A DNA stretch of 64,000 nucleotides. Origin: Chryseobacterium edaphi. GTDB lineage: Bacteria; Bacteroidota; Bacteroidia; Flavobacteriales; Weeksellaceae. The notes beneath the pieces were generated by a model. It searched no databases and was not told where the DNA came from. It worked only from the letters and a program-made list of their open reading frames with translations. Within the stretch, counting starts at the first letter, position 1. The number at the start of each line of letters is the position of its first letter. The position numbers and the translations under genes are program-made. Shown in pieces: positions 9,964-13,060 of the stretch. The stretch spans positions 1,302,001-1,366,000 of the forward strand of contig NZ_JAOTEM010000001.1 of the NCBI RefSeq assembly GCF_025628985.1, read 5' to 3'.

Positions 9964-10983
9964 CTAAGTTCCAACAAACTCCCTCCTAAAGTTAGAATGC
10001 TGCGTCGCTGTAAAATAATCACAAAAAATGTGATAAACTTCAGAATCTGTATGAGTTGCCCGAAGTCCCAACTGAAAATAAATTTCCAAAATCTCATGCG
10101 ATAATTTTTCTACCAAACTGGTTGCAAAACTGTGAATCACAGATTGTTTTTCAGAATTTACTAATTCAAAATCATTCAGTAAATCTTCAATTTCATCAGC
10201 ATATTGAAACACTTTCTCCATCTGCTGTTCTATATTTTCATTAAATGAATTCAGATCAAGTTGTGGTCGAATTTTAATCGCTTCCTCCGAAAAATGAGAC
10301 GCCATTCCAAGATAATTGACCAGCAAAGTTAAATCTGCAAAAATTCTGAATGGAATTTTGTCTAAAACATCTTCTGTGAAAAATTCATCGTAAATAAAAC
10401 TGTAATCTTCCGAAACTTTTACATGATCAACTTTAAAAGAATACGTTCCGGTTGCTTTCATCCCCATCGATTTCCAATTGGGAATAACTTCTACATGATC
10501 TTTAGAAATAACAAAAGAACGTATAATTTCAGAACCGGATTCATCGATCAAAGGAATCCCATTTTCAGTTAATTTTGCATTTAACGTAAAATGGCTTAAA
10601 TGTGGCGCTCCCGTAGCAAAATGCCAAAGGCCGTCGATCATGAAAGTTCCGTCAGCTTGTTTTTCTGCTGTTCCTCCAATCATTCCGCTTCCACCGAAAC
10701 AGGTTTTTTGGTTTGAGAATAATTCTTTTGCAATATTTGGTTTTAAATTTCTTGAGAAAAAATTTGCTCCCGAACATAATGTTAACATCCAGCCTAAACT
10801 TCCGTCGATTTTTGACCAATCATGTAAAACAGACAAACCTTCTCGTAAGCGAAATCCCAATCCGCCATAGATTTTAGGAACCCAAATCTGAAGCAATCTT
10901 TCATGATGAATTTGATTCATGATTAACGCAGAAACTTCAGAAGCTCCCAACATTTCTTTTCTGATTTTTTCAGGCGTAAGCAT
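9964..10983 (-). CDS. Acyl-CoA-dehydrogenase-like flavin enzyme, in the TPP-riboswitch operon
   Basis: 339 aa. The layout is that of the acyl-CoA dehydrogenase / class D flavin monooxygenase (DszC-HpaB-like) superfamily. The N-terminal helical part has WVPKIYGGLGFRLREGLSVLHDWSKIDGSLGW-type sequence, with GWMLTLCSGAN. The middle beta domain contains GGSGMIGGTAEKQADGTFMIDGLWHFATGA and WKSMGMKATGTYSF. The C-terminal helices end in a short REFVGT tail. I see no clear acyl-CoA dehydrogenase catalytic glutamate and do not assign a substrate. The start overlaps the end of the pnuC-like gene by 14 nt, so it is in the same thiamine-controlled transcript. A role in thiamine or precursor metabolism is therefore possible, but this is inference. 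Confidence 0.8.
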   Translation of the reverse strand: MLTPEKIRKEMLGASEVSALIMNQIHHERLLQIWVPKIYGGLGFRLREGLSVLHDWSKIDGSLGWMLTLCSGANFFSRNLKPNIAKELFSNQKTCFGGSGMIGGTAEKQADGTFMIDGLWHFATGAPHLSHFTLNAKLTENGIPLIDESGSEIIRSFVISKDHVEVIPNWKSMGMKATGTYSFKVDHVKVSEDYSFIYDEFFTEDVLDKIPFRIFADLTLLVNYLGMASHFSEEAIKIRPQLDLNSFNENIEQQMEKVFQYADEIEDLLNDFELVNSEKQSVIHSFATSLVEKLSHEILEIYFQLGLRATHTDSEVYHIFCDYFTATQHSNFRREFVGT

Positions 10984-11563
10984 TCTCTTTTTTATTAATT
11001 ATTTTCCTCCACTCCAAATATCCTGAGATTGCGACGATAAACAAGAAAGCCGTCAAAACTGCATACAAATAGAGATCTTTGTGAATCAATAACGGAATCG
11101 CAATGATATTGCTAACATTCAATAAAATCCAGTTTTCAATTTTTCTGCGCGCCATCAACCACATTCCTGCCCATGCAAACGCGCTGACCAAAGAATCCCA
11201 AATCGGAACATCAGAATCGGTAAAATGCGTCAGAAAAAACCAAAAAAGACTGAAAGTTCCAGTGACAATTCCCGCAGTTATTAATTTTTCCTGCTTTGTA
11301 GTTTCGGAAATCGCAGTTTCGGATTTTCGCTTGCCAAATTTCCAGTAAAGCCATCCGTAAATGCTCATGATTAAATAGTAGAGATTCAGCGTAAACTCTG
11401 CGTAAAGTTTCGAAGTAATCATTACATAAAGCGTGAGTGAAACTCCTGCAATTCCAAACAGATAATTGTTTGAGTTGTTTTTTCGGGCTAATAAAACCTG
11501 AAAAATTGAAAAGAAGACACCCAACCATTCAGGCCAAGTTGTCTGTTGTAAAATTTCCTGCAT
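10970..11563 (-). CDS. pnuT: PnuC-family vitamin transporter, probably thiamine (PnuT)
   Basis: About 197 aa, with about seven hydrophobic segments and the PnuC signature NNYLFGIAGVSLTLYVMI and YYLIMSIYGWLYWKFGKR. Near the C-terminus is YAVLTAFLFIVAISGYLEWRK, which matches the YxxLxxxGYxxW pattern of the family. PnuC proteins facilitate diffusion of vitamins such as nicotinamide riboside. The copy behind a TPP riboswitch in Bacteroidetes is known as PnuT and takes up thiamine, and the strong TPP riboswitch about 45 nt upstream supports that substrate. ATG 11563 is preferred over TTG 11566. The next gene overlaps it by 14 nt. Confidence 0.9.
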   Translation of the reverse strand: MQEILQQTTWPEWLGVFFSIFQVLLARKNNSNNYLFGIAGVSLTLYVMITSKLYAEFTLNLYYLIMSIYGWLYWKFGKRKSETAISETTKQEKLITAGIVTGTFSLFWFFLTHFTDSDVPIWDSLVSAFAWAGMWLMARRKIENWILLNVSNIIAIPLLIHKDLYLYAVLTAFLFIVAISGYLEWRKIINKKENAYA

Positions 11564-11608
11564 CAAATTAACTTTTATAAAATTAAATGATGAGATGATA
11601 AAATCAAA

Positions 11609-11692
11609 TTCCCTACGCCGGTATTATCCGGATCAGGTGTGGAAGATTCCTGGGTATCATCTCAGCCGCAATCGTGCAGCACCCCATTGATG
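11609..11692 (-). ncRNA. TPP riboswitch (THI element)
   Basis: The minus strand contains the conserved thi-box pieces in order: GGGGTGC, then GGCTGAGATGATACCC, then ACCTGATCCGGATAATACCGGCGTAGGGA. These are the P2/P3 sensor arm (CUGAGA) and the P4/P5 pyrophosphate arm (ACCUGAUC...GAUAAUACC...GUAGGGA) of the TPP aptamer. It lies 45 nt upstream of the pnuC-like ATG. After the aptamer the minus strand continues into TTTGATTTTATCATCTCATCA, where TGATGAGATGATA is complementary to aptamer sequence. This could form the expression switch, probably by sequestering the aptamer rather than by a long U-tract terminator. Confidence 0.95.
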
Positions 11693-11700
11693 CCGCAAAA

Positions 11701-12119
11701 GTGGAACTTTTTTCTGAGAATAAAAAATTAAACTGAAAAGTTTTTTTATCCACAAAAGAGATAAAATATTTTATTTTTCAGATTTCAAAGAGAATATAAA
11801 AAATTCCTGTTAAAATTTTAAAATCATTAGTCACTCTTATAATCTTTTTATTCAAAAATAAGTGGAACGGCTTTGTATATCTTTATTTCAGGTTTTTTTT
11901 TACTATCTTATATCCTTACGGTTTTTTTTAACGCTAAGAAAAACAAGGCTTTTACAATAAATGCTCTTTTTAAGATAGACAATGGCATTTCATTTAACAA
12001 AGAAATACAAAGTACTTAATGATTGATCGCTTGTGAATTATTTCTTTTGTCTCATTTGCGGTAAAACAACAACCGTTTTCAAATGGATATTTTGTATATT
12101 TAAATTTTAATACCAAACT
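11701..12119. other. Non-coding gap with a degenerate intergenic repeat
   Basis: A 419-bp AT-rich gap between the divergent riboswitch operon and the HPP-family gene. It holds no credible ORF. The middle (11920-12060) contains AACGCTAAGAAAAACAAGGC and AACAAAGAAATACAAAG, which resemble decayed copies of the AACGCAAAG-type repeat seen again at 18768-18862. No clear TAnnTTTG element is seen in front of the HPP gene. Confidence 0.5.
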
Positions 12120-12716
12120 GTGAAGAAGACGCTACGAAGAACTTACCGTGTATCAAAATATGTGATTTATAAAGAAACGCTTGTCGACTATAAAGAACAT
12201 TTCTGGTCTTTTCTCGGAGCTTTTTTCGGAATTGGAATCATTGCTTTTTTGCAGTCCCACTATTTACTCGAACAAGAAAATGTATTTCTTATCGGATCAT
12301 TCGGCGCATCAAGTGTTTTGATTTACGGCGCTATTCAGAGTCCTTTGGCTCAACCTAGAAATCTCGTTGGCGGTCATGTACTTTCAGCCTTGGTTGGAGT
12401 CACTATCTATCAGATTGTTCCTGATATTTTATGGCTTTCCGCACCTTTGGCGGTTGCACTTTCAATTGTATTAATGCAATGCACAAAAACACTTCATCCT
12501 CCCGGTGGCGCGACGGCTTTGATTGCAGTAACATCAACCGGAAAAATTCCTGAATTGGGATATTGGTATGTGTTGTCTCCTGTTTTGTCGGGATGCGTTA
12601 TTTTACTTTTGGTAGCTTTATTTTTTAATAATATCACAAAAAACAGAAGTTATCCTACAAACAGTAAATGGAAAAAGCTTCTTCATAAAAAACACAAGCA
12701 CAATTTGAAAAATTAA
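12120..12716 (+). CDS. HPP-family integral membrane protein
   Basis: 198 aa with four to five transmembrane segments between residues 30 and 175, and the family-defining HPPGGATALIAV motif (about residues 125-136). The glycine-rich IGSFGASSVLIYGA and QPRNLVGGHVLSALVG segments are also diagnostic. Plant and cyanobacterial members have been linked to nitrite transport; the bacterial role is not established. The cytoplasmic tail is basic (KKLLHKKHKH). The start is GTG 12120, giving MKKTLRRTYRVSKYV; no upstream ATG fits. The next gene begins 5 nt later and is probably cotranscribed. Confidence 0.9.
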   Translation: MKKTLRRTYRVSKYVIYKETLVDYKEHFWSFLGAFFGIGIIAFLQSHYLLEQENVFLIGSFGASSVLIYGAIQSPLAQPRNLVGGHVLSALVGVTIYQIVPDILWLSAPLAVALSIVLMQCTKTLHPPGGATALIAVTSTGKIPELGYWYVLSPVLSGCVILLLVALFFNNITKNRSYPTNSKWKKLLHKKHKHNLKN

Positions 12717-12721
12717 TTATT

Positions 12722-13060
12722 ATGAACTGTCTTGAATGCGGCGAAAAAATCATTGGAAGATCAGATAAAAAATTCTGCAATGACGCGTGTAGAAATGCTT
12801 ATAACAATAAACAAAATAAAGATTCTAGCAATCTGATGCGGAACGTAAATAATAAACTCCGCAGAAATTACCGTATCTTGAGCGATACAAATACTGAAGG
12901 AAAAACCAAAATCGCCAAATCTAAATTGAGTGGCTTAGGATTTGATTTTAATTATTTCACACAAATAAAAGTTTATAAAAACGGTTCAGAATATAAATTT
13001 GTTTATGATCAAGGCTATAAAATTTTAGATGAAGATTATATTTTGATTGTTAAGAATTAA
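12722..13060 (+). CDS. Zinc-ribbon protein, function unknown
   Basis: 112 aa. The N-terminal CLECGEKIIGRSDKKFCNDACRNAYNNK contains a CxxC...CxxxC zinc ribbon of the DUF2116 type (Cys3, Cys6, Cys19, Cys23). The remainder is basic and beta-prone: VNNKLRRNYRIL, FDFNYFTQIKVYKNGSEYKFVYDQGYKILDED. It resembles small cytosolic DNA- or RNA-associated proteins found widely in Flavobacteriia, but no activity is established. It starts 5 nt after the HPP gene, suggesting a shared transcript, and is followed by a long inverted repeat. Confidence 0.8.
   Translation: MNCLECGEKIIGRSDKKFCNDACRNAYNNKQNKDSSNLMRNVNNKLRRNYRILSDTNTEGKTKIAKSKLSGLGFDFNYFTQIKVYKNGSEYKFVYDQGYKILDEDYILIVKN

Follow-up and report, generated by a model that had tools for sequence, protein, structure and literature searches.

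The window analysed here is a stretch of 64,000 nucleotides from Chryseobacterium edaphi, on the minus strand of which an aptamer, pnuT and a flavoenzyme gene follow one another in that order. The aptamer, a TPP riboswitch (THI element) at 11593–11695 identified by a match to RF00059, precedes pnuT (10970–11566; ORF and PF04973 match), a PnuC-family gene encoding a probable thiamine transporter of 198 amino acids. The flavoenzyme gene (9964–10983; ATG start, 339 amino acids) was assigned from its ORF and from profile and structure matches, which indicate a protein with the ACAD fold that resembles group-D monooxygenases. Two start codons are available to pnuT, a TTG at 11566 and an ATG immediately after it at 11563, of which the ATG is the more likely. 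The gene next downstream of the flavoenzyme in the window lies on the opposite strand, and no reductase gene adjoins the flavoenzyme in the window. A preliminary description of this DNA had proposed that a TPP riboswitch precedes the PnuC-family gene and that this gene overlaps the flavoenzyme gene by 14 nucleotides; the RF00059 match (E 1.4e-9) bears out the first proposal and the ORF coordinates the second, and the arrangement of aptamer, pnuT and flavoenzyme is confirmed.

In a 601-base search the aptamer aligns with the full length of the RF00059 model (positions 1–105) at 53.0 bits. Because this score is 1.3 bits short of the Rfam gathering score of 54.3, a scan of the whole window at that threshold is silent on the element. 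The aptamer is typical of those that precede such an operon in the family: RF00059 matches all 30 in the sample, comprising the window's own and those from 29 of the 29 family loci fetched, at E < 1e-3, and five score over gathering. The number of terminator-like sites on the stretch is at chance level and the sole one on the minus strand falls within pnuT, so control at the level of translation is likelier. We infer that TPP controls both pnuT and the flavoenzyme gene through the predicted aptamer. Evidence to the contrary comes from Bacteroides thetaiotaomicron, in which, according to PMC5613172, transcripts of pnuT and of the riboswitch-preceded transport operons show no significant change upon thiamine; translational control could explain such unresponsive transcripts.

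The pnuT product scores 165.8 bits against the Pfam NMN_transporter model (PF04973; cut-off 27.3) and 84.3 bits against the NCBIfam model for the nicotinamide riboside transporter PnuC (cut-off 42.45), and PDB entry 4qtn matches it at 49 bits. PnuT orthologues are well separated from other proteins in the 197 genomes of the family sample, scoring at least 177 bits where the next best match reaches 81. A second PnuC-family protein in the C. edaphi genome shares 31% identity with the pnuT product. The name attached to the NCBIfam model is a counterpoint to thiamine as the cargo, but the aptamer and the analogy with Bacteroides PnuT, which transports thiamine when expressed in Escherichia coli (PMC5613172), suggest that thiamine is what this transporter would carry.

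The flavoenzyme is less readily placed by existing models. Its matches to the Pfam acyl-CoA dehydrogenase domains (PF02770, PF02771) lie under the cut-offs for both the N-terminal (13.7 bits; cut-off 22.9) and the middle (15.8 bits; cut-off 33.3) domain. The HsaA equivalog NF045629 and the DszC equivalog NF043015 give 34.5 and 36 bits, without reaching their respective cut-offs of 450 and 850, and the NCBIfam HpaH model also matches weakly and far under its cut-off. A family profile built from 21 aligned members is more informative, scoring 150.7 bits for Rv3094c, 119.5 for HsaA, 111.3 for XiaF, 88.1 for HPAH C2 and 63.8 for DszC when compared with proteins of known structure. We take HsaA (PDB entries 3afe and 3aff) and Rv3094c (7f70, 7f72 and 7f74) to be group-D flavin monooxygenases. 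The residues Gln328-His329 near the C-terminus are invariant in 21 of the 21 aligned members, and His329 aligns with the C-terminal histidines of HsaA (His368) and Rv3094c, a residue which we take to be part of the flavin pocket in monooxygenases of the HsaA, HpaH and DszC types.

The AlphaFold model of the flavoenzyme (pLDDT 87.6, pTM 0.88) leads to a similar placement. Comparison with the HsaA-type and Rv3094c structures gives Z scores of 35.3–36.7 over 324–331 residues (r.m.s.d. 2.3–2.7), and the first 11 structure matches (Z 36.7–33.5) are HsaA-type enzymes, Rv3094c, XiaF, HPAH C2 and a putative Rhodococcus hydroxylase. The acyl-CoA dehydrogenases share the overall fold but fall below the HsaA-type group, with Z scores of 28–30; assignment as a true acyl-CoA dehydrogenase was rejected on the sub-threshold Pfam matches and the first rank of the monooxygenase structures. 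The dibenzothiophene monooxygenases DszC and TdsC belong to the same superfamily (Z of about 30). Foldseek likewise ranks HsaA, XiaF and Rv3094c first and places some acyl-CoA dehydrogenases ahead of DszC, so that a DszC label expresses superfamily likeness only. The earlier label of acyl-CoA dehydrogenase/DszC-like protein thus stands for the fold and superfamily but not for the nearest functional group, the flavoenzyme being closest to group-D flavin monooxygenases such as HsaA and Rv3094c. With these two it shares the fold, a near full-length profile match and the C-terminal histidine in register; it differs from them in its low sequence identity (14–18%), in having no adjoining reductase gene and in its thiamine context. 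By analogy, the flavoenzyme may carry out monooxygenase chemistry with reduced flavin and O2.

The preliminary description had suggested a survey of TPP riboswitches across related bacteria, and in such a survey the enzyme proves to be a conserved companion of the aptamer and pnuT. The family sample of 197 genomes yielded 34 enzyme matches, of which one (G160; 18.5 bits) was left out as too weak; 30 of the remaining 33 homologues have PnuC upstream and an RF00059 aptamer before PnuC. Named genomes were also scanned and yielded 33 loci from Chryseobacterium, Amniculibacterium, Algoriella and Myroides, with PnuC upstream in all 33 and an aptamer detected by a custom model in all 33, although the two linkage counts are not independent since several genomes are common to both sets. 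A tblastn search against plasmids returned 106 records, all under 60% identity, and a plasmid-borne gene was rejected as a candidate. In some Chryseobacterium loci pnuT and the enzyme gene are separated by 119–319 bases, and in five loci (L065, L071, L074, L076 and L078) the gaps of 152–319 bases look by eye like intergenic insertions, with parts that resemble inverted repeats, between otherwise overlapping genes.

The relationship between the two genes is not reciprocal. PnuT orthologues occur in 44 of the 197 family genomes: 30 with the enzyme adjacent, five from genus g23 without it and nine from genus g17. The enzyme is therefore not adjacent in 14 of the 44 and is wholly absent from 11 (the five g23 genomes and six of g17), which indicates that it is dispensable for uptake. 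Within genus g1 both genes are present in 16 of 50 genomes and neither in the other 34, a clean pattern that nevertheless represents few inheritance events because both genes move as one unit.

Outside the family the pairing persists at much greater divergence. In a phylum sample, 26 of 296 genomes match the enzyme: those of C. edaphi and G060, seven from families f17 and f18, three from family f22, nine more distant and five with weak matches. The seven f17/f18 loci encode enzymes of 29–35% identity with PnuC adjacent; PnuC does not adjoin any of the three f22 or nine more distant homologues. The enzyme is present in 60 of 121 genomes of family f17, where PnuC lies upstream in 52 of 59 loci by the automatic rule, in 53 of 59 when locus L241 is added by inspection (it had been missed owing to an over-extended ORF start) and in 54 of 60 with the inclusion of G230. 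The aptamer was found in 24 of the 36 linked f17 loci scanned; no match was seen in the other 12, with up to about 4 kb upstream covered. All 24 aptamers are on the correct strand, 21–116 nucleotides ahead of the aligned PnuC or TonB-receptor start. The end of a TonB-receptor gene lies upstream of PnuC in 16 of 59 f17 loci, and seven f17 loci show the full order aptamer, TonB receptor, PnuT, enzyme. A longer array is seen at L221 2835–10539 (G324), in which the strand that encodes the TonB receptor, PnuT and the enzyme carries, after them, genes of the phosphodiesterase/nucleotide pyrophosphatase and ThiE families and a 190-residue gene that looks TPK-like by eye but has no Pfam match.

A tree of 47 proteins groups the PnuT-linked members with those from g17 and f22 in a single branch (98/91); in this tree the PnuT label requires three changes compared with 12.3 in shuffles. 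The f22 members are nested within that branch, yet searches near the three f22 enzyme genes gave no aptamer; in f22 the function may have shifted, or thiamine control may have been lost. The f22 loci (L155, L157, L159 and L222) carry members of the enzyme family with neither an aptamer nor an adjoining PnuC. In one f22 genome (G336) the neighbours are PA0069-type radical SAM, GMC oxidoreductase-like and depolymerase-like esterase genes, and those of the other two appear similar by eye.

This distribution bears on whether the flavoenzyme might be a passenger, a generic enzyme that sits by chance in a conserved operon. The enzyme does diverge faster than PnuT, with about 60% identity between two Chryseobacterium groups for which PnuT retains about 80%, as such a reading would allow. 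Against it stand the retention of the pairing with PnuT over deep divergence, the presence of an aptamer of its own where the gene is separated (genus g17, below) and dN/dS values of 0.10–0.22 in ten pairs, which indicate purifying selection on the flavoenzyme gene. We therefore consider chance association extremely improbable.

Three g17 genomes (G071, G107 and G097) encode the enzyme, at 38–40% identity, apart from pnuT. In all three a TPP-like aptamer lies 80–85 nucleotides upstream of the enzyme gene (L136 4382–4498, L137 284–408 and L138 7363–7492), found with the custom model at E values of 5.6e-11 to 2.6e-10 in a search of 730 kb of operon-bearing loci alone, the extra rows of which are pieces beside the listed matches. 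RF00059 reports the G107 element only, and weakly (31.3 bits, E 0.031), and for G071 and G097 there is no Rfam match at E up to 0.1. The GGGGTGC / CTGAGAT / ATACCC side of these aptamers is intact, as is the GATAATGC loop. The ACCTGAT...CGTAGGGA arm, which in the canonical TPP aptamer holds the pyrophosphate, is by contrast altered alike in all three and accounts for the weak or absent Rfam matches; in the aptamers that precede pnuT in these genomes, the arm is close to canonical. Given single-sequence folding z-scores of −0.65, −2.67 and −2.20, folding energy by itself is not strong evidence for the g17 elements.

As one observation that would speak against its interpretation, the preliminary description had named beforehand the occurrence of the gene elsewhere, with no riboswitch and in an unrelated neighbourhood. 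The evidence on this point is divided. In g17, where the enzyme gene is separated from pnuT, it stands behind a TPP-like aptamer of its own, whereas the three f22 homologues and six f17 homologues have no adjacent PnuC and no aptamer (0 of 5 in the unlinked f17 loci scanned), and the nine more distant homologues also have no adjacent PnuC. The g17 arrangement would also suit an enzyme whose step lowers the demand for TPP and which has no thiamine-type substrate, sharing only the control signal with pnuT; a TPP aptamer is appropriate for such a gene, and in g17 it stands behind one away from pnuT. The coupling to the importer nonetheless persists across families at about 29–35% enzyme identity, suggesting a common small molecule, and the neighbours of the enzyme gene in the window include no metabolic gene that would support such a bypass, which we judge to be quite unlikely.

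The thiamine genes of the host genomes further restrict what the enzyme could do. Thiamine pyrophosphokinase (TPK; PF04263) is encoded in 195 of the 197 family genomes, and a role for the flavoenzyme as its replacement was rejected on this count. Among the matches listed, which cover 21 of the 30 linked genomes, TPK is on another contig (as it is in C. edaphi) or at least 130 kb from the operon. ThiC gave no match in 19 of the 30 linked genomes, including that of C. edaphi, and is present in the other 11. Among the 19 genomes without a ThiC match, five have ThiE, ThiD and TenA, and in three (G000, the C. edaphi genome, G133 and G154) a diverged ThiE-like protein is all that was found of these. 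In C. edaphi itself we found no ThiC, full-length ThiD or TenA. Partial ThiD-family matches in several genomes (29–34 bits, over the Pfam cut-off of 27, with about half of the model covered) are read as other kinases of the ThiD superfamily.

For a set of 11 of the 30 linked genomes, searches for ThiC, for TenA, for a full-length ThiD and for a ThiE above the family cut-off were all negative. Such hosts could scarcely join pyrimidine or thiazole pieces, so the useful product of the enzyme should be thiamine itself or lie outside precursor salvage, and it is unlikely that in those genomes the enzyme feeds such pieces into thiamine synthesis. The part of the preliminary description that envisaged a general role on free pyrimidine and thiazole pieces is accordingly the part that is less supported, and such a role is disfavoured by the absent thiamine-synthesis genes. 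An enzyme that frees or repairs the pyrimidine or thiazole portion of degraded thiamine for re-synthesis could serve the five linked genomes that have ThiE, ThiD and TenA but no ThiC, and the 11 that have ThiC. Set against the 11 genomes with negative searches and the gene content of C. edaphi, however, this explanation is in our view very unlikely.

In our opinion the evidence is best accommodated by a thiamine-salvage oxidoreductase that acts on an imported or damaged thiamine-level molecule and is a genuine and widespread member of the thiamine-salvage regulon of the Bacteroidota, a reading in which we place slightly less than even confidence. According to this scheme, low TPP would lead the aptamer to permit joint production of pnuT and the flavoenzyme. 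PnuT would import a thiamine-type compound downstream of a TonB receptor; the likely receptor gene of C. edaphi sits behind its own aptamer, and some f17 genomes carry the receptor gene within the operon itself. With the help of reduced flavin and O2, as for HsaA, Rv3094c and DszC, the flavoenzyme would then oxidize a thiamine-level molecule, for example a substituted or oxidized thiamine, to give thiamine, which a thiamine pyrophosphokinase encoded elsewhere would convert to TPP. As a guess, C2-substituted thiamines such as hydroxyethylthiamine would be chemically sensible candidate substrates.

The same import route might instead require protection, with the enzyme made whenever uptake rises and destroying toxic analogues of thiamine, such as bacimethrin, pyrithiamine or oxythiamine, that are taken in via PnuT. 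This would account for the coupling to the importer in hosts both with and without ThiC, and for the patchy presence of the enzyme among PnuT genomes. The best profile match, Rv3094c, also has a solved complex with 'ETH' according to the structure title, presumably the drug ethionamide, a sulfur-bearing heteroaromatic. Pyrithiamine pyrophosphate, however, shuts off the TPP aptamer, and a similar effect is to be expected from the pyrophosphates of such analogues in general, so that the defence would itself be shut down. The operon in the window also contains no resistance or export gene, its next downstream gene being on the other strand. We consider a defence of this type unlikely, if still credible.

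Returning to salvage as the preferred function, the g17 aptamers permit a more far-reaching proposal, which we offer tentatively and regard as possible but doubtful. The Bacteroidota may possess an undescribed O2-dependent route of B1 salvage, in which a flavin monooxygenase turns an environmental thiamine derivative imported by PnuT into thiamine, and the g17 aptamer, with its pyrimidine-sensing side intact and its pyrophosphate-sensing arm remodelled, might respond to a different thiamine-type ligand, perhaps the substrate.

For B. thetaiotaomicron, PMC5613172 lists OMthi, pnuT, tnr3 and thiSEGCHF-tenI as the genes under TPP control. The present system resembles the OMthi/pnuT/tnr3 system in its TPP aptamer, TonB receptor and PnuT, and differs from it in that the tnr3-type TPK of C. 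edaphi is on another contig and the flavoenzyme takes the place behind pnuT. The flavoenzyme is not among the genes so listed, in agreement with the expectation of the preliminary description that it is an unusual member of a TPP regulon; overall, that account holds as regards an unexpected but conserved companion of the aptamer and pnuT. Neither Leaf394 nor Leaf404 is mentioned in the main text of PMC9666465, which thus provides no phenotype for either. We found no published account of this flavoenzyme in the open-access PMC literature; within that literature the thiamine-salvage operon is known and its flavoenzyme is undescribed.

Thiamine auxotrophy shapes many microbial communities, yet little is known of the chemical forms in which bacteria can use B1. 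The pairing occurs in distantly related bacteria, some of them with no detected genes to synthesize or reassemble B1, and this suggests that a step in the use of scavenged B1 has yet to be described. A redox enzyme kept with an importer and a TPP aptamer over deep divergence points either to a usable form of B1 or to a hazard linked to it.

Two further TPP aptamers were noted in the C. edaphi genome. The first (70.7 bits) belongs to a second unusual operon, at L134 3134–5960 (G000:C6:141133–143959), which encodes a SAM methyltransferase, a HypE/ThiL-like protein (HypE 70.3 and ThiL 68.4 bits, both under the cut-off), the diverged ThiE-like protein and a Trm112-like protein. Gene order and the preceding aptamer motif are shared by G133, G154 and G082, all without a ThiC match, with 94–98% identity between the methyltransferases. 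The other (47.2 bits; L135 13165–13259, G000:C5) lies before a gene of 700 amino acids at 10950–13052, the weak matches of which to TonB-dependent receptor models make it a likely outer-membrane thiamine receptor.
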